Positions 34,860 through 55,880 of a stretch of 64,000 nucleotides of DNA are shown one piece after another; the stretch's first letter is position 1; every line of letters starts with the position of its first letter. A program made the position numbers and the translations under genes. The stretch lies in NCBI GenBank assembly GCA_035968315.1, contig JAVYIN010000005.1:372001-436000 (forward strand), given 5' to 3'. This DNA comes from Nitrospira sp. (GTDB taxonomy: Bacteria; Nitrospirota; Nitrospiria; Nitrospirales; Nitrospiraceae). The notes under the pieces were generated by a model, which made no database searches, was not told the origin of the DNA, and worked only from the letters and a program-made list of their open reading frames with translations.

Positions 34860-37699
<2,840 letters not shown>

Positions 37700-37703
<4 letters not shown>

Positions 37704-38932
37704 GAAGCCAGCCGATTCGCGACATCGCTTAAATACAAGGAGACATTCACGCGTTCTTGCATCGGATCGAGCACACGCAGAATTGTTCGTGTCACACCGT
37801 ACTGGCCGGGCATGGCTAGATCGATGCGTTCGGGATTGGTATAGGATTCTCCCTGCGGACCGCCAATGATCCTGACTTGCGGTTTCAGCCGTTGCGTCGG
37901 ATTGGCGCCAACCACGATGGCCTGTTCGCCAGTATTGAGGCGGACCAGGCTGCCGACAGGGTAGACCCCGATACTGCGAATGACGGTCTCGACCAGCGAT
38001 TTGGCGTAGAGCTGTTGTTCGCCGGCGAGGAAGAGTTGCCGGATGGCATCGTGCGGGTTCATGGCCGGGCGCCCGCCGCGCCGGCAGACGAGGCTGTCAT
38101 AGAAATTGACGATGCCGACCAGTTGAGCCAGAGGAGACAGTGACGTCGCGGATATGCCGCTCGGGTAGCCGCTGCCGTTGGCATACTCATGGTGTTCCTG
38201 CACGATGCGCAGCACATCTTCGGGAAACGCCGTGTGTTCCCTCAGCAAGGACACGCCCAATTGGGGGTGTTTCTGCAAAAGCCGGCGCTCCGGTTCCGTG
38301 CAGTCGGAGCGTTTTCGTACGAGATTGCGGGGAAGCCTCACATACCCCACATCGTGCAAGAGGGCGCCGGCCCCCACATGATCGTAGAGCGCGGGATCGA
38401 CTCCCTGTTCAACGGCCACCACGAGCGCGAGGATGCAGACATCGAGGGCGTGCGCGGCGAGAGAACGGTCGAAGTCGCGCATTTTCTGGATGATCCCTTG
38501 TGCGATCATCGTGTCAGGCCGGTCGAGCACATGTGCCAAGACCCGCTCGACGATCGCTTTCGTTTTGGCCGGAGTCGGAGGCAGACCGCGTTCCAGATCG
38601 GCAAAGATGCGGTCGACGGCCTCATGCGCCTCGCTATACACCGCTTCGGCCGAGGTCTGGGGTTGCAACTGCTGGGCGGAGGTGTCTGCCGCCGGTTCAG
38701 CGGGCGTCGAAGGTCGAACCGGGTCATTGGTCACATCGGCCACATCCCGGCCTTTGCTCGTATCGATCATGACAGTGGTGATGCCATGATCCTTCATCTG
38801 CTGGATCGCTTTGAGATCTTCAATGACACGGGAATGAAACAGGAAGGGGGTTCGGTACCACGGCAGGTTCACGTCGAGAATGAACATACCCGGGGTCACT
38901 TCATCGATGGAAATACGCTTGGTTGTACTCAT
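37700..38932 (-). CDS. HD-GYP domain protein with variant HD motif (c-di-GMP phosphodiesterase-like)
   Basis: 410 residues. The N-terminal DUF3391-like domain begins TTKRISIDEVTPGMFILDV. The HD-GYP domain (about 140-330) has LLHDVGYVRLPRNLV, HPQLGVSLLREH and HHEYANGSGYPSG. The metal-binding HD and HH residues are present, but the usual HDIGK is HDVGY, so the lysine is replaced. Such enzymes hydrolyse c-di-GMP. The gene is first in a two-gene minus-strand unit with the hybrid kinase, and a sigma-28 promoter lies 69 bases upstream of its ATG. Confidence 0.88.
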
Positions 38933-39000
38933 GAATGCGGCGCTCCTTTACCCCTTCATGCACAGGTCATGTGGCTGCATGATGCAGGATCCCGCATATC

Positions 39001-39028
39001 CTATCGGCTAGTTTTAGACGGTTCTTTA
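39001..39028 (-). promoter_or_regulatory. Sigma-28 promoter for the HD-GYP/hybrid kinase unit
   Basis: Read on the minus strand: TAAAGAAC-N12-GCCGATAG. It points toward the HD-GYP gene ending its 5' side at 38932. It is back-to-back with the plus-strand promoter at 39096-39123. Confidence 0.75.
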
Positions 39029-39095
39029 CTTGGCGGACAAGGGCAGGAATCATGCCCAAGGCTATGAAAATGCTTGCGAAATGCGGCCCAATGGC

Positions 39096-39123
39096 TCAAG
39101 CCTGGACTCCATCCTGCCGATAA
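39096..39123 (+). promoter_or_regulatory. Sigma-28 promoter for the HD-GYP/PilZ unit
   Basis: TCAAGCCT-N12-GCCGATAA, with the -10 element 57 bases before the ATG at 39180. Confidence 0.8.
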
Positions 39124-39179
39124 AGAATCGGAGCGCCCTGGCAGGGGCAGGCCTTGTTGTTCTCAATTGCAGGTGATGA

Positions 39180-40421
39180 ATGTCCACTCGTATTCATATT
39201 GATCAGTTACGGCCCGGCATGCGCATCGAAAAATTAGATCGTTCCTGGTTTGCGACCCCCTTTTTCCGGCATCGGATGACCGTCACTTCGGGAGAGCAAA
39301 TCGAGCAGCTCAAGGCCTCGGGTGTGCAAACGGTCGAAATTGCCAATGATGCCGAGCTGGCCGGGCCAGGCGAGACCGTGAGTGGGCACCCTCAAGAGAC
39401 GTCAGAGGACTTAGGACCTGTTGTTGCCGAATCGCCAAGTAAAGCGGATCCCCAAACGGAAGTCCTCCCATTCGAAGAGGAGTTGCCGGCGGCGCGGGTT
39501 GTCTACGCGGCGGCGAAGACCGTCATTCAGGACGCGATGAACGATGTGCGGATGGGCCGCGATATCAATATGGATGCGGTGAATCAAGTCGTAGCCGACA
39601 TGGCCGACAGTGTGTTGCGCAATCCCGATGCATTGACCAGTCTCTCGCGTCTCAAGCATTTTGACGAATATACGTTCTTTCACTCGGTGAATACGTCGTT
39701 GCTGGCCATTTCGATGGGCCGTAATCTCGGCTTTGTTGGGGAGGAGATTCATCAGCTGGGCGTCGGCACCTTGCTGCACGATATCGGAAAAACGAAGATT
39801 CCCCTGGAGATTCTAAATAAGCCGGGAAAGTACGAGCCGCATGAATTCGAAATCATGAAGCAGCACGCGCTGCGCGGAGCCGAGGTGCTGTCGGGTACGA
39901 CAGATTTGCCGGATTGCTTCTTGAAGCCGGCGCTCGAGCATCATGAGCGCGTCGATGGCAGCGGCTATCCCTACCAGCGGACGGGGGATCAGCTCAGTCA
40001 GTTTGGGCTGATTTCCGCGGTGGTCGATATCTATGATGCCATTACGAGCGAGCGGTGCTACCATAAAGCCAAACCAGCTCACGAAGCGTTGCAATTTTTG
40101 TATCTCATTTCCCAGAAGGGCCATCTGGATCCACGTTTGGTTCAGCGGTTTATCCAGGTTGTCGGGGTGTATCCCGTCGGATCGTTAGTGGTGCTGAATA
40201 CGGGAGAGTTGGCGGTGGTGGGTCGTCTCAATCATGAGACTCCGCTGACTCCGGTGGTGATCGTCGTCAAGGGGCCTGGAAATGTGCTGTTATCGCAGCC
40301 GGAAACGATTGACTTGGCCGTCCAAGAAAAGAACACGGTGCGGCGCACCATTGTCAGCGTGACAGATCGTGCCACGACGGGGATTTCACCCGGAATCTAT
40401 CTTGACTCGGAGCGCGCATGA
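39180..40421 (+). CDS. HD-GYP domain protein (c-di-GMP phosphodiesterase)
   Basis: 413 residues. The N-terminal DUF3391-like domain starts TRIHIDQLRPGMRIEKLDRS. The HD-GYP domain has FFHSVNTSLLAISMG, the catalytic HDIGK (H200, D201), LKPALEHHERVDGSGYPYQ (about 247-265) and IYDAITSERCYHKAK. All expected metal ligands are visible, so hydrolysis of c-di-GMP is likely. It resembles the divergent HD-GYP protein at 37700-38932, suggesting an old duplication. The ATGA overlap with the next gene shows coupling to a PilZ effector. Confidence 0.93.
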   Translation: MSTRIHIDQLRPGMRIEKLDRSWFATPFFRHRMTVTSGEQIEQLKASGVQTVEIANDAELAGPGETVSGHPQETSEDLGPVVAESPSKADPQTEVLPFEEELPAARVVYAAAKTVIQDAMNDVRMGRDINMDAVNQVVADMADSVLRNPDALTSLSRLKHFDEYTFFHSVNTSLLAISMGRNLGFVGEEIHQLGVGTLLHDIGKTKIPLEILNKPGKYEPHEFEIMKQHALRGAEVLSGTTDLPDCFLKPALEHHERVDGSGYPYQRTGDQLSQFGLISAVVDIYDAITSERCYHKAKPAHEALQFLYLISQKGHLDPRLVQRFIQVVGVYPVGSLVVLNTGELAVVGRLNHETPLTPVVIVVKGPGNVLLSQPETIDLAVQEKNTVRRTIVSVTDRATTGISPGIYLDSERA

Positions 40422-41143
40422 ACGACATCTCGACGATGCAGCCATCGCCGGGCGCCTTTATGACGGTCGGCCTTCCGCTGAAATTATCGTTGGTGCTCGG
40501 TGAGCAGCAGGGCATCTTTGGGTCAGCGCTCCTGGGGTGGAAAGAGCATGCCTGGCTCATCTGTGAATGGCCATCGCAGATCGCGCATGGGACAGAGATT
40601 CCTCGCGGAACCGCGTGCAGTGTGAGCTATGAACATGCGGGGCAATTGGTCGGGTATCGGAGCGAGATTCGCGATCTTGTTTCGGCGCCTGTGCCGCTCC
40701 TGTTTCTCGCCTATCCGCAGATCGTCGAAAGCATGCACCTTCGGAAGTATGTGCGCGTGTCGTCGAGAGAGCCGGTACTGTTGGAGCGCGCGGAAGGCGG
40801 GATGGGCCATGGTGGACATCGTCCTTCTGCTGACATGCTCGGAGGGATTCTCAGAGATTTGAGTCTTGGGGGCTGCAGTGTGGTCCTGTCACAGTCGCAT
40901 CACTGGATCAAGCCTGGCCAAAAAGTACGCATGGCCTTTGAACTGGCTGGATTGGGGCATGTCACAAATTTGACGGGTATTGTGAAAAGTGCGGATTTTC
41001 ATGACAGCACCTGTCTTGTGGGGATCGAGTTTCGTTTTCAGGAAATGGAGTACATCGAATATCGCGGGTGGGGAGGGTCCGTCCAACAGGCGATTCAAAA
41101 GTGGACCAGTCAGAAAGGGGCTGAGCATTTTTCCGCTTGGTAG
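40418..41143 (+). CDS. YcgR-like PilZ protein (flagellar brake candidate)
   Basis: 241 residues. An N-terminal YcgR-type barrel (about 1-105) precedes a PilZ domain with both c-di-GMP motifs: RKYVR at 109-113 and DLSLGG at 147-152. YcgR proteins bind c-di-GMP and act on the C-ring and stator to slow or bias the motor. The start overlaps the stop of the HD-GYP gene by 4 bases, pairing an enzyme that removes c-di-GMP with an effector that reads it. A weak hairpin (CTCGC/GCGAG, 41164-41176, then TCTTT) follows. Confidence 0.85.
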   Translation: MNDISTMQPSPGAFMTVGLPLKLSLVLGEQQGIFGSALLGWKEHAWLICEWPSQIAHGTEIPRGTACSVSYEHAGQLVGYRSEIRDLVSAPVPLLFLAYPQIVESMHLRKYVRVSSREPVLLERAEGGMGHGGHRPSADMLGGILRDLSLGGCSVVLSQSHHWIKPGQKVRMAFELAGLGHVTNLTGIVKSADFHDSTCLVGIEFRFQEMEYIEYRGWGGSVQQAIQKWTSQKGAEHFSAW

Positions 41144-41684: not shown

Positions 41685-42917
41685 ATGAAATCCCTCTTCG
41701 TTCCATGGACGCTCGCGCAGTATCTGAATGGCGCACACCCATTGATTGTTAGTGTATTGGATAGCTTGGCTGGCCAGGTCAGCATCGCGGGGCCTCAGGT
41801 CAACCCCATGTTCGACCGCTCAGAGTTTGCAGCATATTACCGACGTCTGGAAGATGAGATGCAGGCCTTAACGGGTGTAGAGCGTGATATTGTCCAGCGC
41901 TTCGTCGCGACCAGGTATCATTTATCCGATGCCGTAGCACCACCAAATAGTGTTGGGTTTCATCACACCATTCTTCCATCTCTGCGGTATAGCAGCATCG
42001 TGCATTTCGAAACCCCAATTCTGTTCTTTTGGCCTGAGGTATCTCATGGAAAATTCGCCAGGGGCACCTCACTGGTAGATCATCCGTTTTATCCCCTGAT
42101 CAGAGCATCGCTCGCACATTTAAATATTAAAAAGATCGTCTCGCATTCGGCTACCGGACTTCAGTACTTGCGAGGCTTGTTTCCCGATCCTGTCATTCAG
42201 GACAAGACTGCGTATATCCCGCTTATGCCATTCGTACAGCGGAGTGTTGAGCGGGCTAGGCAACTGCCTGGCGGGCAGCCGATCCCACCCACAAAGGGCA
42301 GGCGCCGGATTCTGTTCACGAATTCTTTTCATGGCGAGTCTTCCAGCTTTTGGCTGCGAGGCGGTGTCACAACCCTGTTGGCCTTTCACAGGGTAGGGGC
42401 AATGATTCCGCTGGAGCTAGTCATTGTCGGATTGACTCCAGATGATCTGCCGGAAGAGGTTATGGCGATCGTGCGTTCCCCCTACGTGCGGCAGATTACA
42501 AGAGCGTCAGAATCTGAGTTGCAAGCGTACTACGACAGTGCGGATGTGATGCTCTTGCCATCGATGGGGCTTCATTCCATGTCAATCACACGAGCGATTT
42601 GCAGTGGATGCTATGTGCTGTGTTCTGATGCGCCAGGGGCGGAAGAATATGTGAATGATCCGGCCGCCGGTCTGATCCTGAACGGACTCGCAAGGAACCG
42701 CGTGTACTTTGATGATGCTAAGGCAAGCCTGTTGCTGGACGATTATGCCTCGGTGAAGCAGATCAATGTTGACAATGTGGATGCGGTGGCGGAAGCCCTG
42801 CATGCCAGGCTCACGGCCGTGCCGTGCCGAAATCAGGCGCTGTCTTCGTCTCAATATTCTGATCCGCACTTGATGCTGCGGATAGCGGAACTCTTTCGGG
42901 AGGTGTGCGCGGCATGA
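41685..42917 (+). CDS. GT-B type glycosyltransferase (GT4-like)
   Basis: 410 residues. The C-terminal half shows a GT4-like Rossmann domain: RRILFTNSFHGESSSFWLRG, LELVIVGLTPDDLP, then QAYYDSADVMLLPSMGLHSM and AICSGCYVLCSDAPGAEEYV. The N-terminal half is less recognisable. Base composition in 42000-42900 seems more AT-rich than the flagellar genes, hinting at transfer. It probably adds a sugar to a surface glycan or flagellin; the donor is unknown. Confidence 0.72.
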   Translation: MKSLFVPWTLAQYLNGAHPLIVSVLDSLAGQVSIAGPQVNPMFDRSEFAAYYRRLEDEMQALTGVERDIVQRFVATRYHLSDAVAPPNSVGFHHTILPSLRYSSIVHFETPILFFWPEVSHGKFARGTSLVDHPFYPLIRASLAHLNIKKIVSHSATGLQYLRGLFPDPVIQDKTAYIPLMPFVQRSVERARQLPGGQPIPPTKGRRRILFTNSFHGESSSFWLRGGVTTLLAFHRVGAMIPLELVIVGLTPDDLPEEVMAIVRSPYVRQITRASESELQAYYDSADVMLLPSMGLHSMSITRAICSGCYVLCSDAPGAEEYVNDPAAGLILNGLARNRVYFDDAKASLLLDDYASVKQINVDNVDAVAEALHARLTAVPCRNQALSSSQYSDPHLMLRIAELFREVCAA

Positions 42918-43116: not shown

Positions 43117-46100
43117 ATGATGGGGACACCGAGAATCCTGCTCCTGCAACTGGAGTTTCCGACGTGGGCACAGGCGAAAGCTTGGTCGTACGGAGGCAAC
43201 TTCGCAGTGGAAGACGGGCTTCGTGCTAATGGCTGTGAGTGTGTCACGCTGCCGGTACTGAGCCACGTACCGGATACCTCGCCACTGTCCTGGCTCCATT
43301 ATGCGAAAGATCTCGTCGCCGGCCAACGCTTTGATCAAGTCTGGGTGTGGCTTGTCCATAACCGCTATTCAGATGCTTTTCTGGAATGGGTTGCCGAATT
43401 GGCGCCAGTTAGGGTCGGCCTCATTATGGAATCGCTTCGGTATAGCGAACAGGATTGTCTGCGGTGGCCGCATTTACGGGAGCGGGCCGGTATCGTTGAA
43501 CGACAGACTCGCCACATGACTCATGTGCTGGCTGTGGACGAAGAGGATGCCAGGCGATTCAATGAGCAGGGCACCGTGCGGGCTGCATTCTGGCCAGCCG
43601 CGGTGCCGAGGAGGTACATAGCCTCTGCTGTCGAGTCAGTATCCCGTCAAGAGGCGGCGTTTTACGGCGAACTGTATGGGGACCGGAGTGCGTGGCTGGA
43701 AATGCCTGGACTCAAAGAGCTGCTGGTTCGTCCCCAGTCCGCCGAATCCTCGACGGACTTTCCTCGATTGTTCGATGCCTTGCATCGAGGAGTAGCCGCC
43801 AGGTTTCAGTCGGGCTGGCGGCCGAATCCTGACGCACTGACCGACTATGTGAATGGGTGGCGGCAGTTGCGAGAAGCCATCTTTGCGAATTGGCTGGCTC
43901 ACCTGAAGCCGTGGCGTGCGATCGTCAATTTGCCGAGCCTATTTCAGGGCTACGCAGGGCGTGTGATCGAAGCGATGGCAGCGGGCCGCCCGGTTGTGTC
44001 GTGGGAGGTTCCCGATCGCCCGAAAACAAAGGCACTGTTCGCCGACGGGCGAGAAATTCTCCTCTATTCCAAAGAGTGCCCTACGGTATTGAGGGAGCAT
44101 TTAGCGCGACTCGCCCAGGATGCCGATTATGGGCGGGATATTGCCATTGCCGCGCGTGCGGCGGTGCTTGGGGCTCATACAACGGAGCAACGTGCGGCAC
44201 AAATCTTGAGCTGGATTCAAACAGGACGGGAGCCTCGATTCCAAGAGGAGGGCACACCAGTGCATGCGCACACGAATAATGGGTGTAGCTCAGCGCTCGT
44301 TCATGCCGGCAAACCGGCAATGCCTGCGACGACGGTGTTCGTGCTGACTGTGGACGATCCGGCGTTCCCTTCCTGCAAGGCTGGGCTTGAGGCTCAGCAG
44401 GGGGCCTCATTCGTGCTGGAATTCATCCGGAATGTCAGTCCGTTCAGCGCGGCGGCGCAGAAAATGATCACGGACTGCGCGACCGAGTTCTTTATCCAGG
44501 TCGACGAGGACATGATCTTGCAGCCGGATGCGGTGGCCACAATGGAAGCCGCCATGCGTCGCGCGCCGGACGATGTTGGGATGATCTGTTTCCATCTGCA
44601 TGACGATGATCGTGGGAGAACCATCCAGGGGGTGAAGATTTACCGCACCGCCCTCATGAAGGGGCTGGCCTTTCAGGATGTGAAAGCCAGCGAGATGGAT
44701 CTGCTCGAACAAATGGGCCGGCATGGCATCAAGTGGATCTTGCACCCCGATGTGGTGGGCCGGCATGGCACGGCCTATACGCCCGAGACGATCTATCGTC
44801 GGTACAAGACTATGTACGAAAAGGATATCCGGCAGTGGAATACGCTGACCGCCGATATCCGCCGGAAAGCCGATCAATTTCGGGCATCGGGAGACCCGCT
44901 GGCGCTGTTCGCGCTCCTGGGAGCGGCGCATGGAATTGTGCTGGCTCCGCTGGCGCCAGACCGGGAAAAGGACGCGCGGCAGTACGCCTTGAAAGAACTG
45001 GAGGTCTTCACGCGGCTGTTCTTGTCGTCTCCACCGGCGTCGCAGCCGTACGACCCAGATAGGAAAGCCGTGGTGCCGTCGAATCCCCCTGTGCCGATTG
45101 ACATGGTCGCATGGAAGCCGGACGTGGCTGCTTCGAGCCCGTCATCGTTGCCAGTCGGCCAGGGGGCGGCTGCGCGCTCCGTGCTGATCGTGACCCCGTA
45201 TTTTTGGCCGTCGGTTGGCGGGGTCGAAACTGTGGTGGAAGAATTGGGGTGCGACCTTGCCGCGTCGGGTGTCCAGGTGCAGGTGGCCTGCTATCGGCAG
45301 CCGGATCGCACGGCAGCGGTTCATCGCGGCATTCAGATCATCGAAGTCGATGAGCCGGATCAAATGAGCGGAGGCATGCCGGCGGCGGCGCTCCAGGTCA
45401 GGGAATTGGTGGAGTCCGGCGGGCATGACGCGGTGATTCTGATTGGCTCTCCCGTGAACCCCTTGTTTTTTGCCGTTCTCATGATTCCCCGGTTGCGCGA
45501 GCGGCGCATCCTCTTTCAGCCGACGATCAATCAGGAGGGGTACGATTTTCTCCGGGGCCGTCCCCACGTGCAACGGTTGATGAAGCAATTGGCCGGTGAG
45601 TCCGCGGGGGTGATTGTGTTGGGCCAGGAAACGCTGGATGCCCGATATTGCCGCGAAGAGGGGATTCCCGTCACGGTGGTCCCGAATGGCACGCGGACGC
45701 TCACGCCAACAAACGATTTTCGTGCGCGGCATGGCATCGCCCGCGACGAATTTGTGATCCTGCACCTGGCCAATCTTTACCGGGTAAAGAATCACGTGGG
45801 GTTGCTGGATGCGCTGACTCCGCTTCCGCCGGGGTCGCGATTGGTGGTCATTGGCCACCGGACCCATGAAACCGAGTATGTCGAGGAGGTCATGCGCCGC
45901 CTGTCAGCCTGTCCGGAGGTGCTGTTTCTGCCGGGCTTGGACCGGCAGGGGGTGGCTTCGGCCATGCAGGCCGCGGATCTCGTGGTGTTGTCGTCCGATG
46001 CTGAAGTGTCCCCGCTGTGCCTCTTGGAGGCCATGAGCCTCCGGCGCCCCTGGCTGGCGGCGCCAGGTTGCGGGACGGCCGCCAGCCAGGCCGGCGGGCT

Positions 46101-49100
46101 TGTGCTTCCGCTCCCGGAGTTTCGGAGGGCCGTGCAGGTCTGCATGACGCATCCAGATTTCCGGTCTCGGCTGGCTCAGTCAGGGTATGAGCATTGGGCA
46201 GCCTGTTTTCAGTGGCGTGACATTCTGGCCGGCTGGATATCGCTGATTCGTACCGGGAGCCTGGCCAGGCCGTTTGCTATGCCGCCTGCTGTGGCTCGGT
46301 CGCGGGAGGAACTTCGTGCCGAGTATGACCGGCTCAGTGGTGCGAGCACGCCAATTCCGGCTGAAGTATCGCCGGCGGATTGGAAGACGACGGTTCCGAA
46401 CGGCGGTCCAGGGCAAACGCCAAGGGTTCATCCACCACAGCCATCATCACACGAGGGGTCTATGGATCAGGAGCAATTCTACGTCAACATGTTCGTCAAC
46501 AGCCCCCATTGGTCTACTCCTGAACCGAATCCGGATGAAGCGGCCCGCTGGGCCAAGATCGCCGGGTTTCTTGAACATGTGCTGCGGCGAGTCCAAAAGG
46601 AACGTCCGGAGGCCACTCTGCGGATATTAGAGGTTGGCTGCGGCCGCGGGTGGCTGGCGAATCTGGCCTCGGAATATGGAAGCGTCGAAGGGGTTGAACC
46701 GGTGGCCGGCGTCGTCGCCCACGCGCGCAAGATGTTTCCCCATCTTCGCTTTGAAACGGGAACGGCAGAAACCGTTTTGGCGCGGCCGGATTTCCGCCCC
46801 TACGATATCGTGCTGAGTTCCGAGGTGATTGAACATGTGCCGCATCCGCAGAAGCCCGCATTTCTGGATGGGCTTAAGCGGCTGCTGACACCGGACGGCT
46901 ATCTTATTCTCACGACTCCACGAGGAGAAATGTGGGAACGCTGGCAAGCAATTGCCCCGCCCAGCCAGCCGGTGGAGGACTGGGTTACGGAACAGCAGTT
47001 GGCGAATTTTCTAACCGGCCAGGGCTTCACGCCGCTGGGCGTCGAGCGGATTTACGTGGAAATCCCGATGCTCCGGTATGTTCCCACGGTGACGGCGCAC
47101 GACCTCAGGACCAGAAATCTTCTGCCGATTTACCAGGTGTGGATCGCCCAACGGGCCGCGATTACGCCCTCCCTGCCCAGGCCGTCGATCAATTGCGCGC
47201 CGATGGTCAGCGTGATCATCCCGACCTTTAATCGGCCGGAGCGGTTGCGCAAAGCGATTGCCAGTGTGCAGGCACAGGACTATCAGGATTTCCAGATCAT
47301 TGTGGTGAACGACGGAACGGTGTCCGTTGAGGCGGTGGTGTCGGACTTGAATCGTGATGGACGGATCACCCTCATCACGCATGATCTCAATCGCGGCCTC
47401 GCGGCATCCCGCAACACGGGCCTGCGTCATGCAGCCGGGAAATATGTCTGTTATCTGGATGATGATGACCGGTTCTTGCCGGATCACCTGCGCGTCTTGG
47501 TGAGCCGGCTGGAAACGGGTGATTGCAAAGTGGCGTATACGGATGCCTGGCGGGTGCATGAACGTGTGGAGGGGGAGCGTATCATGGAGGTTGGCCGGGA
47601 CCGGCCGTATTCGCACGAATTCAATCCCCATCAGTTGCTGATCAACAATTACATGCCGGTGCTCTGCGTGATGCATGAGCGGACGTGCCTGGATGAGGTT
47701 GGCGGGTTCGATGAGAGTCTGTTTGTGCATGAGGATTGGGATTTGTGGATCAGGCTGGCGACCCGCTATTCGTTCGCGCATATTGCGCAAACGACGGCAG
47801 AATTTACTTGGCGCACCGACGGGACGACCATGTCGAGCCAGCCGCGCGAGGCCTTCGCGCGAACGGCGGAGATCATCTATCGCAAGTATGCGCCCTATGC
47901 GGCGCCCTATCCCCAGATTGTGCAGCAGCAGCGCGAGCGTCTGGCGGGGCTCCGCCGGGAGGCGGCTGCGCATCGGGAGACCAAGGCCAAGCAGTATGAT
48001 TGTTCCATCATTATCCCGGTCTGGAACAAAGTGGAGCTGACCCAGCAGTGCGTGATGGCGCTGGCGGAGGTCACGGAGGGGGCGTCGTACGAAGTCATCG
48101 TGGTAGACAACGGCTCGACCGATGGCACGCCGGACCTGTTGAACTCGCTGGGCGGGGATATTCAGGTCATCCGTAACCGGGAGAATCTGGGGTTTGCCAA
48201 GGCCTGCAATCAGGGCGCCGCGGCCGCCAAGGGCGACTATCTGGTGTTCCTCAACAACGACACCATTCCCCTGAAAGGATGGCTCAGCGCATTGGTGGAA
48301 GAGGTCAAGGGAGATCAGGGCATTGCGGTCGTGGGGAGCAAGCTGCTGTATCCTGACCGGACGGTCCAGCACGCGGGAGTGGCGGTGGACCGGCTTACGC
48401 ACACGCCCTACCACATCTACCGGGGATTTGCCGAAACCCATCCGGCGGTCAACAAACGCCGCGAGCTGAATGCGGTGACCGGGGCGTGCGTGTTGATCCG
48501 CCGGACTCTGTTCGAGGAGCTGGGCGGGTTCGATGAGGGATATGTCAACGGATTTGAAGATGTGGATCTCTGCTTCAAGGCGCGTGAGCAGGGGCACCGC
48601 ATCGTGTATCAGCCCAAGAGCGTCCTGTTCCATCTGGAAAGCCAGACGCCGGGCCGCAAGCAGCATGATGCGGAGAATGGCCGCCGTCTCATGCAGCGGT
48701 GGGGGCACGCGTGGTGGCTGGTGGATGATGACAGTCTCTATGTGGAGGATGGATACAAGGCGGTGTCGGTGTCACGGAATGGACGGGCGGAAAGCGAGTT
48801 GCAGGTCCTGGACAGATCCGAGGATCGGCAGGCGTGGGGGATCGTGGCCGAGACGCAACTGGCGGCAAAGCGCCGGGATGATGCGGCGGTCGTGCAGCAA
48901 CTGGGCAAGTACGCTGACTGGCCGGCCGATCGCTCTGTATTGAAATGGGCCGCGTCGGTGGCCGAGGCCATCAAGCAGCCGGCGCTTACGGCGTCCTTTA
49001 TGCGCCGGATCGCGGCGCTCGACGATCCGGCGGCGGAACAGATTTCGATCATTCGAGAGGCCTTGAGCAAGGGACAAGTCACGGCCGCGGCCTCGCGGCT

Positions 49101-49614
49101 GGAGGCGCTGCTGAAGCACTATCCGTCCCATGCCGAGGGGCTGCTGCTCAAAGCTATTCTCCACATGCAGCGGGAACAGTATCGTGACGCGGAAATTGCC
49201 TTTACGACCGCCTTGAATCAAGGGGCCGACCGCAGGAAGTGCCTGATGGGGATCGGCATGGCCTCGATGGGACGGGCCTATCCGCAGGGAGCGTGGCAAA
49301 CATTTTTGCGAGTCTTGGGTGAAAATCCCGATGATGCCGAAGTCATTCATTGGCTGCTGCGAGCCGGCACGGCGCAGAACCGCTGGCCGGAACTCTGTGT
49401 GCAGCTGCGGAACTATGTCGCCCGCAATCCCAGCGACATCTCGGCGCGGTTTGCCTATGCCGGCGTGCTGCTGCGCGCCGATCACGTCGAGCAGGCGCGG
49501 CAGGAATATGCCCAGTTGGAGGCGCTGGCTCCCGATCACGAGGGGATGCGGGAGTTGCGGCAAGCGATTGCCGGGAAGGAAGCGGTGCTGGCCATGGATG
49601 TGTCGCCGGCGTAG
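43117..49614 (+). CDS. 2165-residue multi-domain glycosyltransferase/methyltransferase
   Basis: Domains in order: (1) about 1-375, CgeB/GT4-like with GYAGRVIEAMAAGRPVVSWE; (2) about 405-640, GT2-like fold with QVDEDMILQPDA; (3) about 688-1060, GT4 starting VLIVTPYFWPSVGGVETV, with LVVLSSDAEVSPLCLLEAM; (4) about 1116-1360, class I SAM methyltransferase with LEVGCGRGWL near 1170 and SSEVIEHVPHP; (5) about 1364-1600, GT2 with SVIIPTFNRPERL and YLDDDDRFLPDHL; (6) about 1628-1880, GT2 with SIIIPVWNK, FLNNDTIPLKGW and GFEDVDLCFKAREQ; (7) about 1985-2150, TPR-like helices. It is cytoplasmic by appearance and probably assembles a methylated oligosaccharide on flagellin or a lipid carrier. ATG 46462 with GAGGGG at 46453-46458 could start a second, shorter product. 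Confidence 0.88.
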   Translation: MMGTPRILLLQLEFPTWAQAKAWSYGGNFAVEDGLRANGCECVTLPVLSHVPDTSPLSWLHYAKDLVAGQRFDQVWVWLVHNRYSDAFLEWVAELAPVRVGLIMESLRYSEQDCLRWPHLRERAGIVERQTRHMTHVLAVDEEDARRFNEQGTVRAAFWPAAVPRRYIASAVESVSRQEAAFYGELYGDRSAWLEMPGLKELLVRPQSAESSTDFPRLFDALHRGVAARFQSGWRPNPDALTDYVNGWRQLREAIFANWLAHLKPWRAIVNLPSLFQGYAGRVIEAMAAGRPVVSWEVPDRPKTKALFADGREILLYSKECPTVLREHLARLAQDADYGRDIAIAARAAVLGAHTTEQRAAQILSWIQTGREPRFQEEGTPVHAHTNNGCSSALVHAGKPAMPATTVFVLTVDDPAFPSCKAGLEAQQGASFVLEFIRNVSPFSAAAQKMITDCATEFFIQVDEDMILQPDAVATMEAAMRRAPDDVGMICFHLHDDDRGRTIQGVKIYRTALMKGLAFQDVKASEMDLLEQMGRHGIKWILHPDVVGRHGTAYTPETIYRRYKTMYEKDIRQWNTLTADIRRKADQFRASGDPLALFALLGAAHGIVLAPLAPDREKDARQYALKELEVFTRLFLSSPPASQPYDPDRKAVVPSNPPVPIDMVAWKPDVAASSPSSLPVGQGAAARSVLIVTPYFWPSVGGVETVVEELGCDLAASGVQVQVACYRQPDRTAAVHRGIQIIEVDEPDQMSGGMPAAALQVRELVESGGHDAVILIGSPVNPLFFAVLMIPRLRERRILFQPTINQEGYDFLRGRPHVQRLMKQLAGESAGVIVLGQETLDARYCREEGIPVTVVPNGTRTLTPTNDFRARHGIARDEFVILHLANLYRVKNHVGLLDALTPLPPGSRLVVIGHRTHETEYVEEVMRRLSACPEVLFLPGLDRQGVASAMQAADLVVLSSDAEVSPLCLLEAMSLRRPWLAAPGCGTAASQAGGLVLPLPEFRRAVQVCMTHPDFRSRLAQSGYEHWAACFQWRDILAGWISLIRTGSLARPFAMPPAVARSREELRAEYDRLSGASTPIPAEVSPADWKTTVPNGGPGQTPRVHPPQPSSHEGSMDQEQFYVNMFVNSPHWSTPEPNPDEAARWAKIAGFLEHVLRRVQKERPEATLRILEVGCGRGWLANLASEYGSVEGVEPVAGVVAHARKMFPHLRFETGTAETVLARPDFRPYDIVLSSEVIEHVPHPQKPAFLDGLKRLLTPDGYLILTTPRGEMWERWQAIAPPSQPVEDWVTEQQLANFLTGQGFTPLGVERIYVEIPMLRYVPTVTAHDLRTRNLLPIYQVWIAQRAAITPSLPRPSINCAPMVSVIIPTFNRPERLRKAIASVQAQDYQDFQIIVVNDGTVSVEAVVSDLNRDGRITLITHDLNRGLAASRNTGLRHAAGKYVCYLDDDDRFLPDHLRVLVSRLETGDCKVAYTDAWRVHERVEGERIMEVGRDRPYSHEFNPHQLLINNYMPVLCVMHERTCLDEVGGFDESLFVHEDWDLWIRLATRYSFAHIAQTTAEFTWRTDGTTMSSQPREAFARTAEIIYRKYAPYAAPYPQIVQQQRERLAGLRREAAAHRETKAKQYDCSIIIPVWNKVELTQQCVMALAEVTEGASYEVIVVDNGSTDGTPDLLNSLGGDIQVIRNRENLGFAKACNQGAAAAKGDYLVFLNNDTIPLKGWLSALVEEVKGDQGIAVVGSKLLYPDRTVQHAGVAVDRLTHTPYHIYRGFAETHPAVNKRRELNAVTGACVLIRRTLFEELGGFDEGYVNGFEDVDLCFKAREQGHRIVYQPKSVLFHLESQTPGRKQHDAENGRRLMQRWGHAWWLVDDDSLYVEDGYKAVSVSRNGRAESELQVLDRSEDRQAWGIVAETQLAAKRRDDAAVVQQLGKYADWPADRSVLKWAASVAEAIKQPALTASFMRRIAALDDPAAEQISIIREALSKGQVTAAASRLEALLKHYPSHAEGLLLKAILHMQREQYRDAEIAFTTALNQGADRRKCLMGIGMASMGRAYPQGAWQTFLRVLGENPDDAEVIHWLLRAGTAQNRWPELCVQLRNYVARNPSDISARFAYAGVLLRADHVEQARQEYAQLEALAPDHEGMRELRQAIAGKEAVLAMDVSPA

Positions 49615-49620
49615 ACAACC

Positions 49621-50796
49621 ATGAAGCGGATTCTGGTCGTACAGTTGGCCCGGCTCGGTGACCTGGTGCAATCGATGCCGGTACTGGCCGCCTTGCGCGC
49701 GCGCCACCCACAGGATCGGATCGATCTGCTGTGCCCGGCCCAGCTTCGCGATCTTGCTGGGATGATCCCCGGTATTGATCGGGTGATGGGATGGGATGGT
49801 ACGGTCTGGCAACAGTGGGCTTCACAAGCGGCGACCGGCATCAGGCGCGATCAGCTCCGTCACATCGAAGCCGAACTGGCCGCCCTCTGTTCCGATTCCT
49901 ATGACCGGGCCTATGTTCTGAACCAGCATCCGCGCGCCATCCTGGCCGGCGCGCTGCTGGCCCAGGAGACCGTTGGCCCATTGGCTGACGGGCCGCTGAG
50001 CGAGCGCCTGACTCCGTGGGCGGCGTATATCAGAGAGATCGCCACAACGCGCAAGACCAATCATGTGCATCTATCGGACGCCTTTTGCGGGCTGTGCGGA
50101 GTCGTCCCGCCGGGGCAGGCTGCGCATCTTCAGCTCCCGGCTACGGCGCTGCCGGCGGATCTGGAACGGATTGGGCAAGAGGGCACTCCGTGGATCGGCC
50201 TCATTGTCGGGGCAGGTGATCAGGCTCGGCAGATTCCCGCCGAGGTGTGGCGCACCTGGATCGTGCAATTTTTAAATCAGGCTTCGCGTGGCCGGGTCGT
50301 CTTGATCGGGCAGGGAGCCGAGCGGGAACGGGCGCGGCAGATACAGGATGCGTTGCCGGCATCTTTGCAGGGGCGAGTCTGGGATGTCACGGGGAGAACG
50401 ACCGTGCCTGAATTGGCCGTCGTGCTCTCACGCTGCCAGCGGGTGATCGGGTCGGATACAGGCCCGCTGCATGTGGCTGCCGCGGTCGGCACGCCCGTGA
50501 TCGGATGGTACATCGCCCGCGCGAGAGTGCATGAGACCGGTCCCTATGGGCCGGGACATATCGTGTGGCAAGCAGAAAGTCCGGACGGCGGTCTGGCGGT
50601 CCCCACGACGTGGCCGATCGAATCGTCGCTGGACGCGCTCCTCAATCGGCCCCCCGCCGCGCTCAATGGGTGGTCGATCTGGATGAGTCAGGCCGATGCC
50701 CGGGGAACCTATTATACGAAGGCGGGTGAAGCGGCGGCGCCGCCTCGCGCGCGAGAAGCAATCTGGCAGGAATTACACCGCGCGGTCGCGGCTTGA
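49621..50796 (+). CDS. GT9 family glycosyltransferase (heptosyltransferase-like)
   Basis: 391 residues. The N-terminus KRILVVQLARLGDLVQSMPV is the GT9/ADP-heptose transferase signature. The C-terminal half has WIGLIVGAGDQARQIP and CQRVIGSDTGPLHVAAAVGT, the donor-binding SDTGPxH motif. LPS heptosyltransferases are the known members, but GT9 proteins in flagellar islands can glycosylate flagellin. It is 6 bases after the giant gene and 7 bases before the CgeB-like gene. Confidence 0.87.
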   Translation: MKRILVVQLARLGDLVQSMPVLAALRARHPQDRIDLLCPAQLRDLAGMIPGIDRVMGWDGTVWQQWASQAATGIRRDQLRHIEAELAALCSDSYDRAYVLNQHPRAILAGALLAQETVGPLADGPLSERLTPWAAYIREIATTRKTNHVHLSDAFCGLCGVVPPGQAAHLQLPATALPADLERIGQEGTPWIGLIVGAGDQARQIPAEVWRTWIVQFLNQASRGRVVLIGQGAERERARQIQDALPASLQGRVWDVTGRTTVPELAVVLSRCQRVIGSDTGPLHVAAAVGTPVIGWYIARARVHETGPYGPGHIVWQAESPDGGLAVPTTWPIESSLDALLNRPPAALNGWSIWMSQADARGTYYTKAGEAAAPPRAREAIWQELHRAVAA

Positions 50797-50803
50797 GGAA
50801 TAT

Positions 50804-52621
50804 ATGAGTGTGTTTGAACGCAATCTTGAGCGCCTGAGCAAGCATGATCCCACGTTCGCTGCCGCGGTGCGGGACAGCCTGGGCGGGAGCCTGACCATCA
50901 GCCCTTCACGGGAGGGAAGTCCGACGGCCAAGGTCCAAGGCCAGTGGATTCACAGCGCCTATGATCCCCGAAAAGAGGCCGAGGCCTGGGCTCAGGCGCT
51001 GGTCAAAGAATGGCAACCGGGCGAAGTGGGTGTCGTCCTGGGGGCCGGGTTGCTCTATCACATCGAAGCCCTGGCCGCGCTGAAGCCGGCGGAGACGAAG
51101 CTGGCCGTTGTCGTGCCGGATCTCGCGGCGCTCCACGATGCCATCGGCTGCCGGCCATTGGAAGCCTGGTGCGGGACGATTGAATGGCTCTGGGGCAGTC
51201 CGGAAGACATGGCCGCGCGGCTGGCCGGGAAGTCCACGCCGTTGCGGTTCTTTACCTATGGTCCTGCGGCACGGATCCATGCCGAGCGTCATCAGCAGCT
51301 TGAGACCCATTTGCGGCGGTTGGTCGCGGCGCAGCAGAGCGGGCAGCTTCATGTCGCGGTGGTTGGGCCTATTTACGGCGGCTCCTTGCCGATTACCGGC
51401 TACGTCGTCCGGGCCTTGGAGGCTTTGGGACACCGCGTCAGCTGGATCGATCACAGCGTACACCATCGCAGCTATGAGGCGTTTGGCTCGTTTCGGGATG
51501 CCCGCCATCGCGCCGCCATGCAAAACCGCTTCGCCGACGTGCTGAGCATGAGCACCCTGACCGAGCTGGCCGAGGATCCGCCGGACCTCGTGCTCGCCAT
51601 GGCGCAGGCGCCGATGAGCTTGGGCGCGCTCGAACACCTGCGCCGCAAGAAATTCTTGACGGCCATGTGGTTTGTGGAAAACTACCGGCACCTGACCTAT
51701 TGGCAGCAACTTGCGCCGGGCTATGACTACTGGTTTGTGATTCAGCAGGCCGAGTGCCAGGCGGCGTTGAAACGGGCCGGCGCGCCGCATGTCAGCTACC
51801 TGCCGATGGCCGCCGATCCCGTCATCCATCGGCCACTGATTCTCACGGCTGAGGAACAGGCGGAATTCGGCGCCGATGTGTCGTTTGTTGGGGCGGGGTA
51901 TCCCAACCGCCGCAGGCTGCTGCCCCGCTGGATCTCCAGGGAGTGGAGCTTCAAGCTGTGGGGGAATGAATGGGACGGCGCGGCCGATCTCGCTCCCGTG
52001 TTGCAGCGCCAGGGCGCCCGCATCGATACGGAAACCTGCTTGAGCGTGTTCAATGCCACGGCCATCAATCTGAACCTCCACTCCTGCACGGGTGAAGGCC
52101 TCGATCCGCAGGGCGACTTTGTGAATCCCCGGACCTTCGAACTGGCCGCCTGCGGGGCGTTTCAATTGACCGACCGCCGCGCCTTGCTGGGCGAGCTGTT
52201 CACCGGTGAAGAAGTCGTCCAATTCGATCGGGCCGACGAAGTCCGCGCGTTGATCCGGACCTGGCTGGGCGATCCGGCCGGCCGCCGGCGCATCGCCGAC
52301 GCGGCACGCCAGCGGGTGTTGCGGGAACATACCTATCAGCATCGCATGACCGCCTTGCTGGCCGAGCTGGGCCTGCGCCAGCCCGATCGCATCGGCTCCA
52401 TCTTGCGGGGAGAGCGGAACGCGGGCGCGCTGGCGGAGCAGGCCTCGGCGGCGCCTGAACTGGCGGCACGATTGCGGCAATTCCCCGGCACCCAGCGGGT
52501 TGAACTCAAAGACCTGGCGGCGCATATCAGAGCCAAGGGGCCCGGAGCAGAACTCGCGCGCGAGGATCTCTTGATCCTGATGCTCGACAGCTATCGCGAA
52601 GAAATGCGGGATGTCGCATGA
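50804..52621 (+). CDS. CgeB-like glycosyltransferase
   Basis: 605 residues from ATG 50804, which has GAGG at 50795-50798; an upstream start at 50696 would overlap the GT9 gene. The central part has VVGPIYGGSLPITGYVVRAL and FVENYRHLTYWQQLAPGYD. The C-terminal glycosyltransferase domain has SFVGAGYPNRRRLLP, LWGNEWDG, INLNLHSCTGEGLDPQGDF and NPRTFELAACGAFQLTD. This is the CgeB/YkvP type often found in flagellar or spore glycosylation loci. Its last 4 bases overlap the next gene. Confidence 0.83.
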   Translation: MSVFERNLERLSKHDPTFAAAVRDSLGGSLTISPSREGSPTAKVQGQWIHSAYDPRKEAEAWAQALVKEWQPGEVGVVLGAGLLYHIEALAALKPAETKLAVVVPDLAALHDAIGCRPLEAWCGTIEWLWGSPEDMAARLAGKSTPLRFFTYGPAARIHAERHQQLETHLRRLVAAQQSGQLHVAVVGPIYGGSLPITGYVVRALEALGHRVSWIDHSVHHRSYEAFGSFRDARHRAAMQNRFADVLSMSTLTELAEDPPDLVLAMAQAPMSLGALEHLRRKKFLTAMWFVENYRHLTYWQQLAPGYDYWFVIQQAECQAALKRAGAPHVSYLPMAADPVIHRPLILTAEEQAEFGADVSFVGAGYPNRRRLLPRWISREWSFKLWGNEWDGAADLAPVLQRQGARIDTETCLSVFNATAINLNLHSCTGEGLDPQGDFVNPRTFELAACGAFQLTDRRALLGELFTGEEVVQFDRADEVRALIRTWLGDPAGRRRIADAARQRVLREHTYQHRMTALLAELGLRQPDRIGSILRGERNAGALAEQASAAPELAARLRQFPGTQRVELKDLAAHIRAKGPGAELAREDLLILMLDSYREEMRDVA

Positions 52622-54279
52622 CGCGGCAGGTGCTGATCGTGAACGTGACCCGGATGGGCGATCTCGTCCAGATGGGGACGCTTCTGGCGCGGCTGCAGGA
52701 AGAATGGCCGGGGGCCGCGGTCGATTTGATTGTCGACCGGCGATTCGCCGCAGTCGCCTCGCTGTTGACCGGACTGCGAGAGATTCTTCCCTTCGACTTT
52801 CATGCTCTGATCGACGACAGCCGTGTCGCGGCGAAAAGCGCCGTGTCCCTTTATCGGGACATGGCCCTGTGGGCGGCTCCGATGGTGGCGCGCCGGTACG
52901 ACCGGATTATCAACCTGACGTTCAATCGGCCCAGCGCGCTGCTCAGCACCTACATCGGCGCGCCGGATATCCGCGGCGCCCGCGCGGCTTGGGATGGGGC
53001 GAGCGTGATCGAGAACGGCTGGATGGGCTATTTCACCGACATGCACCGGTTCCGGTCATTGAACCGTTTCAATCTGGTCGATGTGTATGCGCTCGGCGGC
53101 AGCCGAGCTGGGGCGTTTGCCCCCTTGTCGGTGACCGTCACGCCGCAGGCCAAAGACTGGGCAAAGCGATTTCTTGCCGCGCCGCCCGATGCGCCGGCCG
53201 AGTGGATTGCGGTCCAGGCGGGGGCCAGCGATGTGATGAAGGCCTGGCGGCCTCATCATTTCGGACAGACGCTGGCGCAGTTCAGCCTCCGATGGGCCGG
53301 AGGCATCGTCTTGATCGGCACCCCTTCCGAGCAGGAGACCATCGCCCAGGTGGTGCAGGCCTATCGGGCTGCCAGCGGACGGCAGCCGCTGGTGAGCGCC
53401 GCGGGCCACACCACGTTGGAGCAGCTTGTCGGACTGCTGGCCGAATGCCGCCTCCTGCTCACCAACGATACAGGGCCCATGCACCTGGCCGTGGGCGTCA
53501 AGACGCCGGTCATCGATCTGTCCGTGGGGCACGTGGATTTCCGCGAGACCGGACCGCATGGACCGGGCCATTGGGTGATCCAGCCGGAGTTGGACTGCGC
53601 GCCCTGCGGGTTCGACCGAGTCTGCGGGCACCAGACCTGTAAAGACCGCATTCCGACCGGCATGGTCGCCGACCTCATGCGGCATGTGGTGGGGCAGGGG
53701 CCGGTGCCAGCTTCTGAACCGGGCTATGGTGTGTATGAATCAGGCATTGACGAAGATCAGTTGGGCACCTTCCGGCCTGTGGGAATCACCGGGACATCGG
53801 ATCGGGACTGGTACAGCCGGTTTTGGCGCCGCTATTGGTACGAATGGCTCACGGGCACTGCCAGCCGGATTCCCGCAGATCCCGGTTTGCCGTCGGACGC
53901 CGAGCAGGCCGCCCAGCACATCGCCGGGATGTTGCCGGAGGTCGAACAGTTGTGCCGCCAGGCCGAGGGAATTGTCCGGGCGGTTTCGGCGGCGCCCTCG
54001 TCCTTGCTCTCCTTGCAACGGGCGCAAGCGGCGTTGCGAGACCGGGTGGTAGACATTGGCTTGGCGGCGGCAGCCAGTTCCCCTGTGACCGCCGTCTTCT
54101 GGCGGATGATTCACAATGACGATGTCCGGGGACTGGATCGGATGGCCCAGCACCATGCGCAAGCCTATCGGCAGTGGCAACGGCAGCTGACCGATGTGCA
54201 TCGCCGTCTGACCCAGCGGACGCATCCGGCTGCTGTGCGGCCATTGCCAATGCTCAGAGGAACCGTCGCTGCCTATTGA
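52618..54279 (+). CDS. GT9 family glycosyltransferase with extra C-terminal helical domain
   Basis: 553 residues. GT9 marks: RQVLIVNVTRMGDLVQMGTL, then WIAVQAGASDVMKAWRPHHF, and LLLTNDTGPMHLAVGVKTPV. A cysteine-bearing section CAPCGFDRVCGHQTCK (about 325-345) is like that of LPS heptosyltransferases with a small Cys cluster. Residues about 375-553 are a separate Arg/Ala-rich helical region not usual in GT9. It overlaps the preceding gene by 4 bases (ATGA), so the two enzymes probably act together. Confidence 0.83.
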   Translation: MTRQVLIVNVTRMGDLVQMGTLLARLQEEWPGAAVDLIVDRRFAAVASLLTGLREILPFDFHALIDDSRVAAKSAVSLYRDMALWAAPMVARRYDRIINLTFNRPSALLSTYIGAPDIRGARAAWDGASVIENGWMGYFTDMHRFRSLNRFNLVDVYALGGSRAGAFAPLSVTVTPQAKDWAKRFLAAPPDAPAEWIAVQAGASDVMKAWRPHHFGQTLAQFSLRWAGGIVLIGTPSEQETIAQVVQAYRAASGRQPLVSAAGHTTLEQLVGLLAECRLLLTNDTGPMHLAVGVKTPVIDLSVGHVDFRETGPHGPGHWVIQPELDCAPCGFDRVCGHQTCKDRIPTGMVADLMRHVVGQGPVPASEPGYGVYESGIDEDQLGTFRPVGITGTSDRDWYSRFWRRYWYEWLTGTASRIPADPGLPSDAEQAAQHIAGMLPEVEQLCRQAEGIVRAVSAAPSSLLSLQRAQAALRDRVVDIGLAAAASSPVTAVFWRMIHNDDVRGLDRMAQHHAQAYRQWQRQLTDVHRRLTQRTHPAAVRPLPMLRGTVAAY

Positions 54280-54338: not shown

Positions 54339-54857
54339 ATGCATGTCACCCTCGATCAGGAACAGTGGGATGTCGTGAAACAGAGCACGCTTGGCGAAGT
54401 GCTGGCCGACATTACGGAAAAAGCCCATGCCCGCGCGCGTCTCATCACGTCGCTGATGGTCGATCAGCGGCCGATCACCGACCGCGATTTGGATCCCGCG
54501 TTTTTGGGGGAATCCAGCAGCCGATATTCGCGGATCCAGGCCTCGTCCCGGAGCATGGACGACGTTATGCAGGAAGCCCAGAACACGATTCGACGGTATG
54601 CGACGCTCTTGAGAAACGATGCCCGCGGCCTGGCCACCCGGTTCAGGCTCGGGGAAGAATCGACCGCCGGCCTCGATGCCTGGCTGGGGCAGCTCGCCGA
54701 CTACATTGAATACGTCGAGTCGTCGCCGTCCGCCTCGGCTCAAAGCCACGAGTTGCCGGTGTGGGTGCGGGAGTTGTTGCAGGCGCGGGCCGACCGGGAT
54801 CTGGTGCGCCTGGCGGATGTGCTGGAATATGAGCTGATGCCGCGGTTGGAGGCCTAG
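54339..54857 (+). CDS. Uncharacterised helical protein upstream of flagellin
   Basis: 172 residues from ATG 54339, with AGAGAGG at 54328-54334. The sequence is mostly helical and charged: MHVTLDQEQWDVVKQSTLGE, LADITEKAHARARLITSLMV, and a C-terminal LVRLADVLEYELMPRLEA. No membrane segment or known motif was recognised. It sits 59 bases after the GT9 gene and ahead of the fliC promoter, so it probably belongs to the glycosylation transcript. Export chaperone or glycosylation adaptor are position-based guesses only. Confidence 0.65.
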   Translation: MHVTLDQEQWDVVKQSTLGEVLADITEKAHARARLITSLMVDQRPITDRDLDPAFLGESSSRYSRIQASSRSMDDVMQEAQNTIRRYATLLRNDARGLATRFRLGEESTAGLDAWLGQLADYIEYVESSPSASAQSHELPVWVRELLQARADRDLVRLADVLEYELMPRLEA

Positions 54858-54924: not shown

Positions 54925-54951
54925 TCAAGTCCCTGCTGGTTTAGCCGATAA
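54925..54951 (+). promoter_or_regulatory. Sigma-28 promoter for fliC
   Basis: TCAAGTCC-N11-GCCGATAA, the best-looking sigma-28 match in the window. It leaves a leader of roughly 95 bases before the fliC ATG. Confidence 0.9.
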
Positions 54952-55052: not shown

Positions 55053-55880
55053 ATGGCACTTATCATTAACAACAACCCGGCGTCGATTGCAGCCCAGAGG
55101 AACCTGTCAGTCAACACCGGGGGCTTGCAGCGGTCGGTCGAACGGCTCTCATCCGGCTTGCGCATCACCCGCGCCGCGGATGATGCCGCCGGTCTCGGTT
55201 TGTCCGAGTCGTTGCGCGCTCAGGTTCGCAGTATCAATCAGGCGACCCGGAACGCCTCCGACGGCATCAGCTTGACGCAGATCGCCGACGGCGCGGCCGC
55301 CACGATCGGGTCCTTGCTGTCTCGTATGCGCGAACTGTCGTCACAGTCCGCCAGCGGCACGGTCGGCGCCACCGAACGTTCGTACATCGATCAGGAGTTC
55401 GTGGCGTTGCGGTCGGAAATCGATCGTATTGCGCAGACCACGGAATTCAACGGCCAGGCGCTGACGAGCGGCAGCTCGATCACGTTCTCCGTGCAGATCG
55501 GCTTCCGGAGCGGTTCCGGCAACACGTTGTCGCTGGACTTGAACGACATCTCGCTCTCGTCCTTGAGCATGAGCTCGGTGAACGTGTCCACCTCTGCGGC
55601 GGCGCAGAGCGCGTTGGGAAACATCGACAATGCGATCAGCGCCGTGGCGACGGCTCGCGCCGAATACGGGTCACTCCAGAACCGGTTCGAAGCGACCATT
55701 TCCAACCTGCAGATCACGAGTGAAAACCTCACGGCTGCAGAGTCGCGCATCCGCGATGCGGACGTGGCGTATGAAACCTCGCAATTCACCAAGAACCAGA
55801 TCCTGGTGCAGACCGGTATCTCTGTGCTCGCACAGGCGAATACCTTGCCGCAACAGGCGCTGGCCTTGTTGAGAGGTTAG
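55053..55880 (+). CDS. fliC: FliC, flagellin
   Basis: 275 residues, a short flagellin. The conserved N-terminal D0/D1 starts ALIINNNPASIAAQRNLSV, with SSGLRITRAADDAAGLGLSE; the C-terminus has YETSQFTKNQILVQTGISVL and ends QQALALLRG. The central variable domain is almost absent (about 175-195), so surface Ser/Thr for glycosylation would lie in D1. It is the only flagellin gene in the window. A sigma-28 promoter precedes it and a strong hairpin follows. Confidence 0.98.
   Translation: MALIINNNPASIAAQRNLSVNTGGLQRSVERLSSGLRITRAADDAAGLGLSESLRAQVRSINQATRNASDGISLTQIADGAAATIGSLLSRMRELSSQSASGTVGATERSYIDQEFVALRSEIDRIAQTTEFNGQALTSGSSITFSVQIGFRSGSGNTLSLDLNDISLSSLSMSSVNVSTSAAAQSALGNIDNAISAVATARAEYGSLQNRFEATISNLQITSENLTAAESRIRDADVAYETSQFTKNQILVQTGISVLAQANTLPQQALALLRG

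Follow-up and report, generated by a model that had tools for sequence, protein, structure and literature searches.

A long modular glycosyltransferase encoded near flagellin in Nitrospira, with a probable role in making a species-specific flagellar glycan

We analysed a 64,000-nucleotide window of a Nitrospira sp. genome (assembly GCA_035968315.1, contig JAVYIN010000005.1, positions 372,001 to 436,000), and focused on a gene at 43117..49614 on the forward strand (coordinates are those of the window) that encodes a 2165-aa protein, here called the mega-glycosyltransferase (mega-GT). Judged from sequence and gene context, mega-GT is likely to make a flagellar sugar chain that is particular to each species. 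We consider it likely that the protein is a cytoplasmic, multi-catalytic flagellin glycosylation enzyme, in which a core of the GmaR type is fused to exchangeable modules that extend and methylate the glycan. As a rule, bacteria make the glycans of their flagellin with several separate enzymes. In mega-GT, most of the pathway seems to be fused in one chain, with a constant tail that handles the acceptor and a front whose modules are swapped.

Domain architecture and integrity of mega-GT

The mega-GT gene is a single unbroken frame, and the domain content and order proposed in a first-pass annotation of the sequence were confirmed, by Pfam for all but the second domain: a CgeB-type glycosyltransferase (GT), an unlabelled GT-A-like domain, a GT4, an S-adenosylmethionine (SAM) methyltransferase, two GT2 domains and tetratricopeptide repeats (TPR). 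Module 1 (residues 1-385, 43117..44271) is a GT-B domain of the CgeB type, with PF13524 at residues 269-364. Module 2, here termed GT2L (residues 386-690, 44272..45186), is GT-A-like, lacks a database family and carries an invariant VDEDM motif. Module 3 (residues 691-1085, 45187..46371) is a GT4 of the GT-B fold, with its N-lobe at 701-858, its C-lobe at 879-992 and a conserved E963-x7-E971 pair. The class I SAM methyltransferase of module 4 (residues 1110-1350, 46444..47166) matches PF13489 at 1151-1305, and is followed by GT2a (module 5, residues 1355-1600, 47179..47916; PF00535/PF10111 at 1365-1573), with DDDD and HEDWDLW motifs. The last two modules form the constant core: GT2b (module 6, residues 1612-1880, 47950..48756; PF13641 at 1629-1863), whose nearest folds include polypeptide GalNAc-transferases, and an all-helical TPR tail (module 7, residues 1900-2165, 48814..49611), with TPR_19 at 1982-2038 and TPR_14 at 2110-2146. 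The chain ends ~20 residues past the last TPR match. The catalytic motifs of the modules are conserved among homologues. No membrane-spanning stretch is evident in mega-GT, and its sole hydrophobic maximum (2.14) falls inside the GT4 fold.

An assembly error or frameshift that fused separate genes would also yield so long a chain, and the corresponding domains do sit in two or more neighbouring genes in three deep-branching loci (L081, L094 and L096; L and G numbers denote our loci and genomes). However, full-length single-frame homologues were found in at least ten sampled relatives of the same genus (~58-63% identity), and further ones on contigs of named Nitrospira (53-63% identity). They come from many independent assemblies, several of which are single-contig genomes (G022, G024 and CP092081). 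We therefore exclude a frameshift or chimera, the flaw that the first-pass annotation had listed as a refutation, and give such an error a negligible chance of explaining the chain.

The second domain had been described as GT2-like. Residues ~386-690 gave no match to Pfam, NCBIfam or PDB profiles. The motifs VDEDM, SEMDLL and GRHGT are kept across ten divergent members, at the places of the DxD motif, the ED motif and the distal His of GT2 enzymes, and the predicted model has a beta-alpha-beta topology at medium to low confidence. In a weak profile alignment (hhalign, P = 0.005, probability 7.6%), in which GT2b was the best of 13 comparators, the DED of GT2L falls on the GT2 NND motif. When the N-terminal model was searched with Foldseek, matches to its GT4 domain took up the lists, and the CgeB and GT2L folds were thereby hardly probed. 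We treat GT2L as putatively GT-A-like.

The GT2b-TPR core

In sequence, GT2b matches both the GT domain of GmaR (E 7e-5) and polypeptide GalNAc-transferases (E 1.6e-6), and a relation is also seen in fold (Z about 23). Published work takes the combination of GT2 and TPR as a sign of flagellin transferases other than Maf. GmaR of Listeria monocytogenes puts GlcNAc on flagellin, for which its TPR is the proposed binding part (PMC9638930), and the TPR of FlmG from Caulobacter binds flagellin experimentally (PMC7591256). Mega-GT shares with GmaR a GT2/GT-A domain directly before TPR repeats in one chain and a gene associated with flagellin. It is probably a new, expanded and modular form of the GT2-TPR flagellin glycosyltransferases, with ~1600 aa of added transferase and methyltransferase modules ahead of GT2b.

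Mega-GT was not assigned to any of three known types. GmaR itself has 637 aa and a C-terminal antirepressor domain, whereas no domain follows the TPRs of mega-GT, and GmaR proper was rejected on this ground. FlmG is likewise a modular flagellin glycosyltransferase, but its TPR is N-terminal, its catalytic domain is a GT-B and it transfers pseudaminic acid; the C-terminal TPR of mega-GT and its GT-A neighbour exclude the FlmG type. Maf proteins are also flagellin transferases, and Maf-1 recognises its acceptor through a C-terminal TPR (PMC13317340), but they carry a PF01973 domain, which was found neither in mega-GT nor in the genome of the window. For a NeuB-type synthase, which would mark a route to nonulosonic acid, that genome gave a single weak match (E 1.5e-11), in a 344-aa frame that is possibly a DAHP synthase, and no clear route of this kind was recognised.

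Association with one type of flagellin

In a first sample of the genus, mega-GT was present in 31/31 flagellin-bearing genomes and in 0/4 flagellin-less genomes (G002, G014, G015 and G021). In an even sample of the phylum (198 genomes), the full GT2b-TPR core was limited to the family of the window (f1) plus G055. Within f1, all 29 genomes with a short flagellin type (279-319 aa for 26 of them) had the core, and it was found in none of six with a long flagellin (frames of 626-655 aa; G122, G113, G137, G183, G190 and G199) and in none of nine without flagellin. The sampled genomes are related, so these counts are not independent trials. Two core-bearing genomes gave no flagellin match at the threshold used: G013 holds a flagellin fragment, and in G171 the contig stops just ahead of flagellin. 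Short flagellins without the core occur elsewhere in the phylum (family f20), so the pairing of short flagellin and core is no general law.

Domain scans of the fetched loci showed a constant gene order: mega-GT, a GT9, a DUF3880/CgeB-like GT (CgeB2), a second GT9, a 172-aa protein, fliC, flaG, fliD and fliS. Among 44 distinct loci with >6.5 kb of downstream sequence, the three downstream GTs were present in every locus, and the 172-aa protein and flagellin in 43 each. Because the window protein served to retrieve most of these loci, this set leans to similar ones; the whole-genome samples were not so chosen. Conserved position and co-occurrence with the short flagellin type together give strong support to a link between mega-GT and flagellin modification, as the first-pass annotation had proposed. 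Since the system is tied to a single flagellin type, the idea that sugars take the place of absent outer domains of flagellin can be put to the test. Our search of the open literature found no paper on Nitrospira flagellin glycosylation.

A constant tail and an exchangeable front

The architecture of 56 distinct complete proteins was compared. TPR and GT2b occur in all 56, both being required for selection; GT2a was present in 53, the methyltransferase in 47, the CgeB-type module in 40, and GT2L with GT4 in 17. The constancy of the tail is supported independently by the whole-genome samples, which lie outside this selection and in which every flagellin-bearing member of the genus had the tail and not all had the front. 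Alternative fronts include a PF13578 methyltransferase (L059 and L073), several GT4 domains together with a GT2 (L035), and another CgeB-type GT with a GT2 (L090, from N. moscoviensis, which lacks a methyltransferase of the module 4 family). In N. defluvii (L072), the order is CgeB-GT2-methyltransferase-GT2a-GT2b-TPR. On the GT2b-TPR tree, at least 18 changes of architecture are needed, and presence of the GT2L-GT4 cassette changes six times, each change being forced by well-supported branches.

The CgeB module of the window provides a case of exchange. For GT2b, TPR, GT9 and CgeB2, the window is closest to L036-L039, L045 and L049 (72-74% identity in GT2b and 67-69% in TPR). Its CgeB module shares 42-46% identity with the modules of these loci and 66-71% with those of twelve loci of other lineages. 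The CgeB tree rejects a grouping that has 100% support in the tail tree (log-likelihood difference 519, AU p 0.0004). These comparisons indicate that the allele of the CgeB module stems from another lineage than the remainder of mega-GT. Along the chain, the switch in identity falls somewhere between residues 365 and 600, which places the exchange at or near a module border. The exchange of mega-GT fronts spans a genus of globally important nitrifiers, and the differences in module set between species amount to a natural experiment, in which protein architecture could be used to read the structure of the glycan.

In deep-branching loci, the parts of mega-GT are encoded separately. L081 has CgeB-GT2L-GT4 and methyltransferase-GT2a-GT2b-TPR as two genes 0.6 kb apart, the chain of L094 is split after the methyltransferase by a stop and a new start, and the parts are split further in L096. 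This arrangement suggests that mega-GT arose by fusion of separate genes. An apparent gene split in L086 was rejected, as it is an N-filled scaffold gap.

Other large proteins were also seen. A Nitrospirales genome encodes a protein of 3500 aa in which the GT2b-TPR unit occurs three times in tandem (L096:12458-22957), upstream of the same GT9-CgeB2-GT9-flagellin block. Anammox Brocadia (L101, L103 and L104) have giant multi-GT proteins with the GT2a-GT2b pair, and a member of the flagellin family is encoded several kb upstream in L101 and L104. Genome G017 (L007 and L035) holds two mega-GTs, a copy of the full-length type at a contig end and a 2175-aa protein with a GT2/GT4 front beside flagellin, which reflect either a second copy or contamination of the bin.

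Proposed mechanism

We propose that the TPR tail would hold the flagellin subunit in the cytoplasm while GT2b transfers the first sugar to flagellin Ser/Thr. The fused GT2a, GT4, GT2L and CgeB-type domains, together with the separate GT9, CgeB2 and GT9 enzymes, would then extend this sugar stepwise, and the methyltransferase would O-methylate one of the sugars so added, all of this ahead of flagellin export. Assembly of a defined oligosaccharide, as envisaged in the first-pass annotation, is plausible. Rhamnose is a possible sugar, because the genome of the window has an RmlC-type gene, consistent with a supply of dTDP-rhamnose. Front modules are gained, lost and exchanged between lineages on a tail that stays, and this turnover would let the flagellar glycan differ from species to species while the core is shared.

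A partial parallel is known from the type B flagellin of Clostridioides difficile, for which a fusion of GT2 and methyltransferase has been proposed as the enzyme that attaches rhamnoses after a GlcNAc and methylates them (PMC5207246). There too, GT2-family enzymes (GT1 and GT2) act sequentially on flagellin and GT2 has a fused SAM methyltransferase, but they are separate proteins, whereas mega-GT unites five GT-like domains and TPR in one chain.

More tentatively, mega-GT may work as an assembly line comparable to modular peptide or polyketide synthases. The C-terminal GT2-TPR would bind flagellin and start the chain, and each further module in the N-terminal direction would add the next sugar outwards, such that swapping or deleting an N-terminal module would alter an outer sugar; the glycan coat would also replace the outer domains of a minimal, D0-D1 flagellin. 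A tail that is constant and a front that varies would be in keeping with such inside-out building, but conservation alone is no proof of colinearity, and we see this version as possible without favouring it.

Certain points weigh against a role for mega-GT in flagellin glycosylation as we propose it. The island holds no sugar-nucleotide genes, the transferase role of GT2L is putative, and the GalNAc-transferase matches point to a shared fold and distant sequence kinship that are silent on donor and acceptor. Both the acceptor and the order of action are what we infer, and FliD and a FlgL-like protein, as other exported filament proteins, could be alternative acceptors.

Alternative explanations

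The GT9 domains are typical of lipopolysaccharide (LPS) core synthesis, and multi-domain GTs are known for capsules (8qoy), so the island might make a cell-surface polysaccharide or LPS core and lie near fliC by chance. We find this unlikely: the system co-occurs strictly with short flagellin and is absent from flagellin-less and long-flagellin relatives, although non-flagellated relatives should need LPS too, the adjacency is kept in all but one of the 44 loci, and a TPR tail is typical of flagellin transferases. Because the block continues after fliC with the genes of FliD, FlaG and FliS, glycosylation of other exported filament proteins (the FliD cap or FlgL), instead of flagellin or in addition to it, was also considered. 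This is distinctly unlikely, as long-flagellin relatives with flagella genes lack the system, which ties it to the flagellin type, and its nearest constant partners are fliC and the 172-aa protein.

Mega-GT had further been described as processive, a claim that gained no support, in that no polymerase feature was found in the protein. A processive polymerase would make a repeating, methyl-capped polysaccharide, in the manner of WsaE or chondroitin synthase, that is later moved to protein. The order methyltransferase-GT-GT does resemble the soluble WsaE of Geobacillus stearothermophilus, in which a methyltransferase is N-terminal to two GT domains (PMC2943079), and GT2a-GT2b align with chondroitin and heparosan synthases. 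However, these synthases match as single domains and their joint superposition is poor (root-mean-square deviation >12 Å), which does not show a common domain arrangement. WsaE also differs in having three domains, in having as its substrate a lipid-linked S-layer polyrhamnan whose chains are terminated by methylation, and in lacking a link to flagellin. The five dissimilar transferases of mega-GT define no repeat, and a TPR tail beside the last GT in a soluble, flagellin-linked locus fits direct stepwise addition. We favour the stepwise mechanism, because sequential addition without a repeat is the better fit for several dissimilar transferases of one step each, and regard a processive polymerase as highly improbable.

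The probable flagellar glycosylation locus

The genes that follow mega-GT up to fliC are all on the forward strand. A heptosyltransferase-like GT9 (49621..50796) is followed by CgeB2, with DUF3880 and PF13524 (50696..52621), and by a GT9 with a C-terminal extension (52618..54279); these ORFs abut or overlap. Next to fliC lies the gene of the 172-aa protein (54339..54857), which has no Pfam or NCBIfam match. Its family is confined to genomes that carry the mega-GT system, whether in this or in a diverged form (32 of the 198 sampled), and shows the same flagellin-type pattern as the core, and we consider the protein a candidate flagellin adaptor or chaperone of the system. A sigma28-like promoter (TCAA-N15-GCCGATAA, one mismatch; 54925..54951) precedes fliC (55053..55880), which encodes a 275-aa flagellin with D0-D1 only, the presumed acceptor. 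Residues 141-190 of this FliC are 36% Ser/Thr. The first-pass annotation placed mega-GT in an island just upstream of fliC; mega-GT is on the upstream side, but 5.4 kb and four same-strand genes, three of them the conserved GTs, lie in between.

On the other side, a hybrid histidine kinase, two HD-GYP genes and a PilZ/YcgR gene (34860-41143) lie just upstream of the island, and this cyclic di-GMP group is kept beside it in many Nitrospira. Between the PilZ gene and mega-GT, an extra GT4-type gene (41685..42917, forward strand) was not seen in the other loci compared and is probably a lineage-specific addition.

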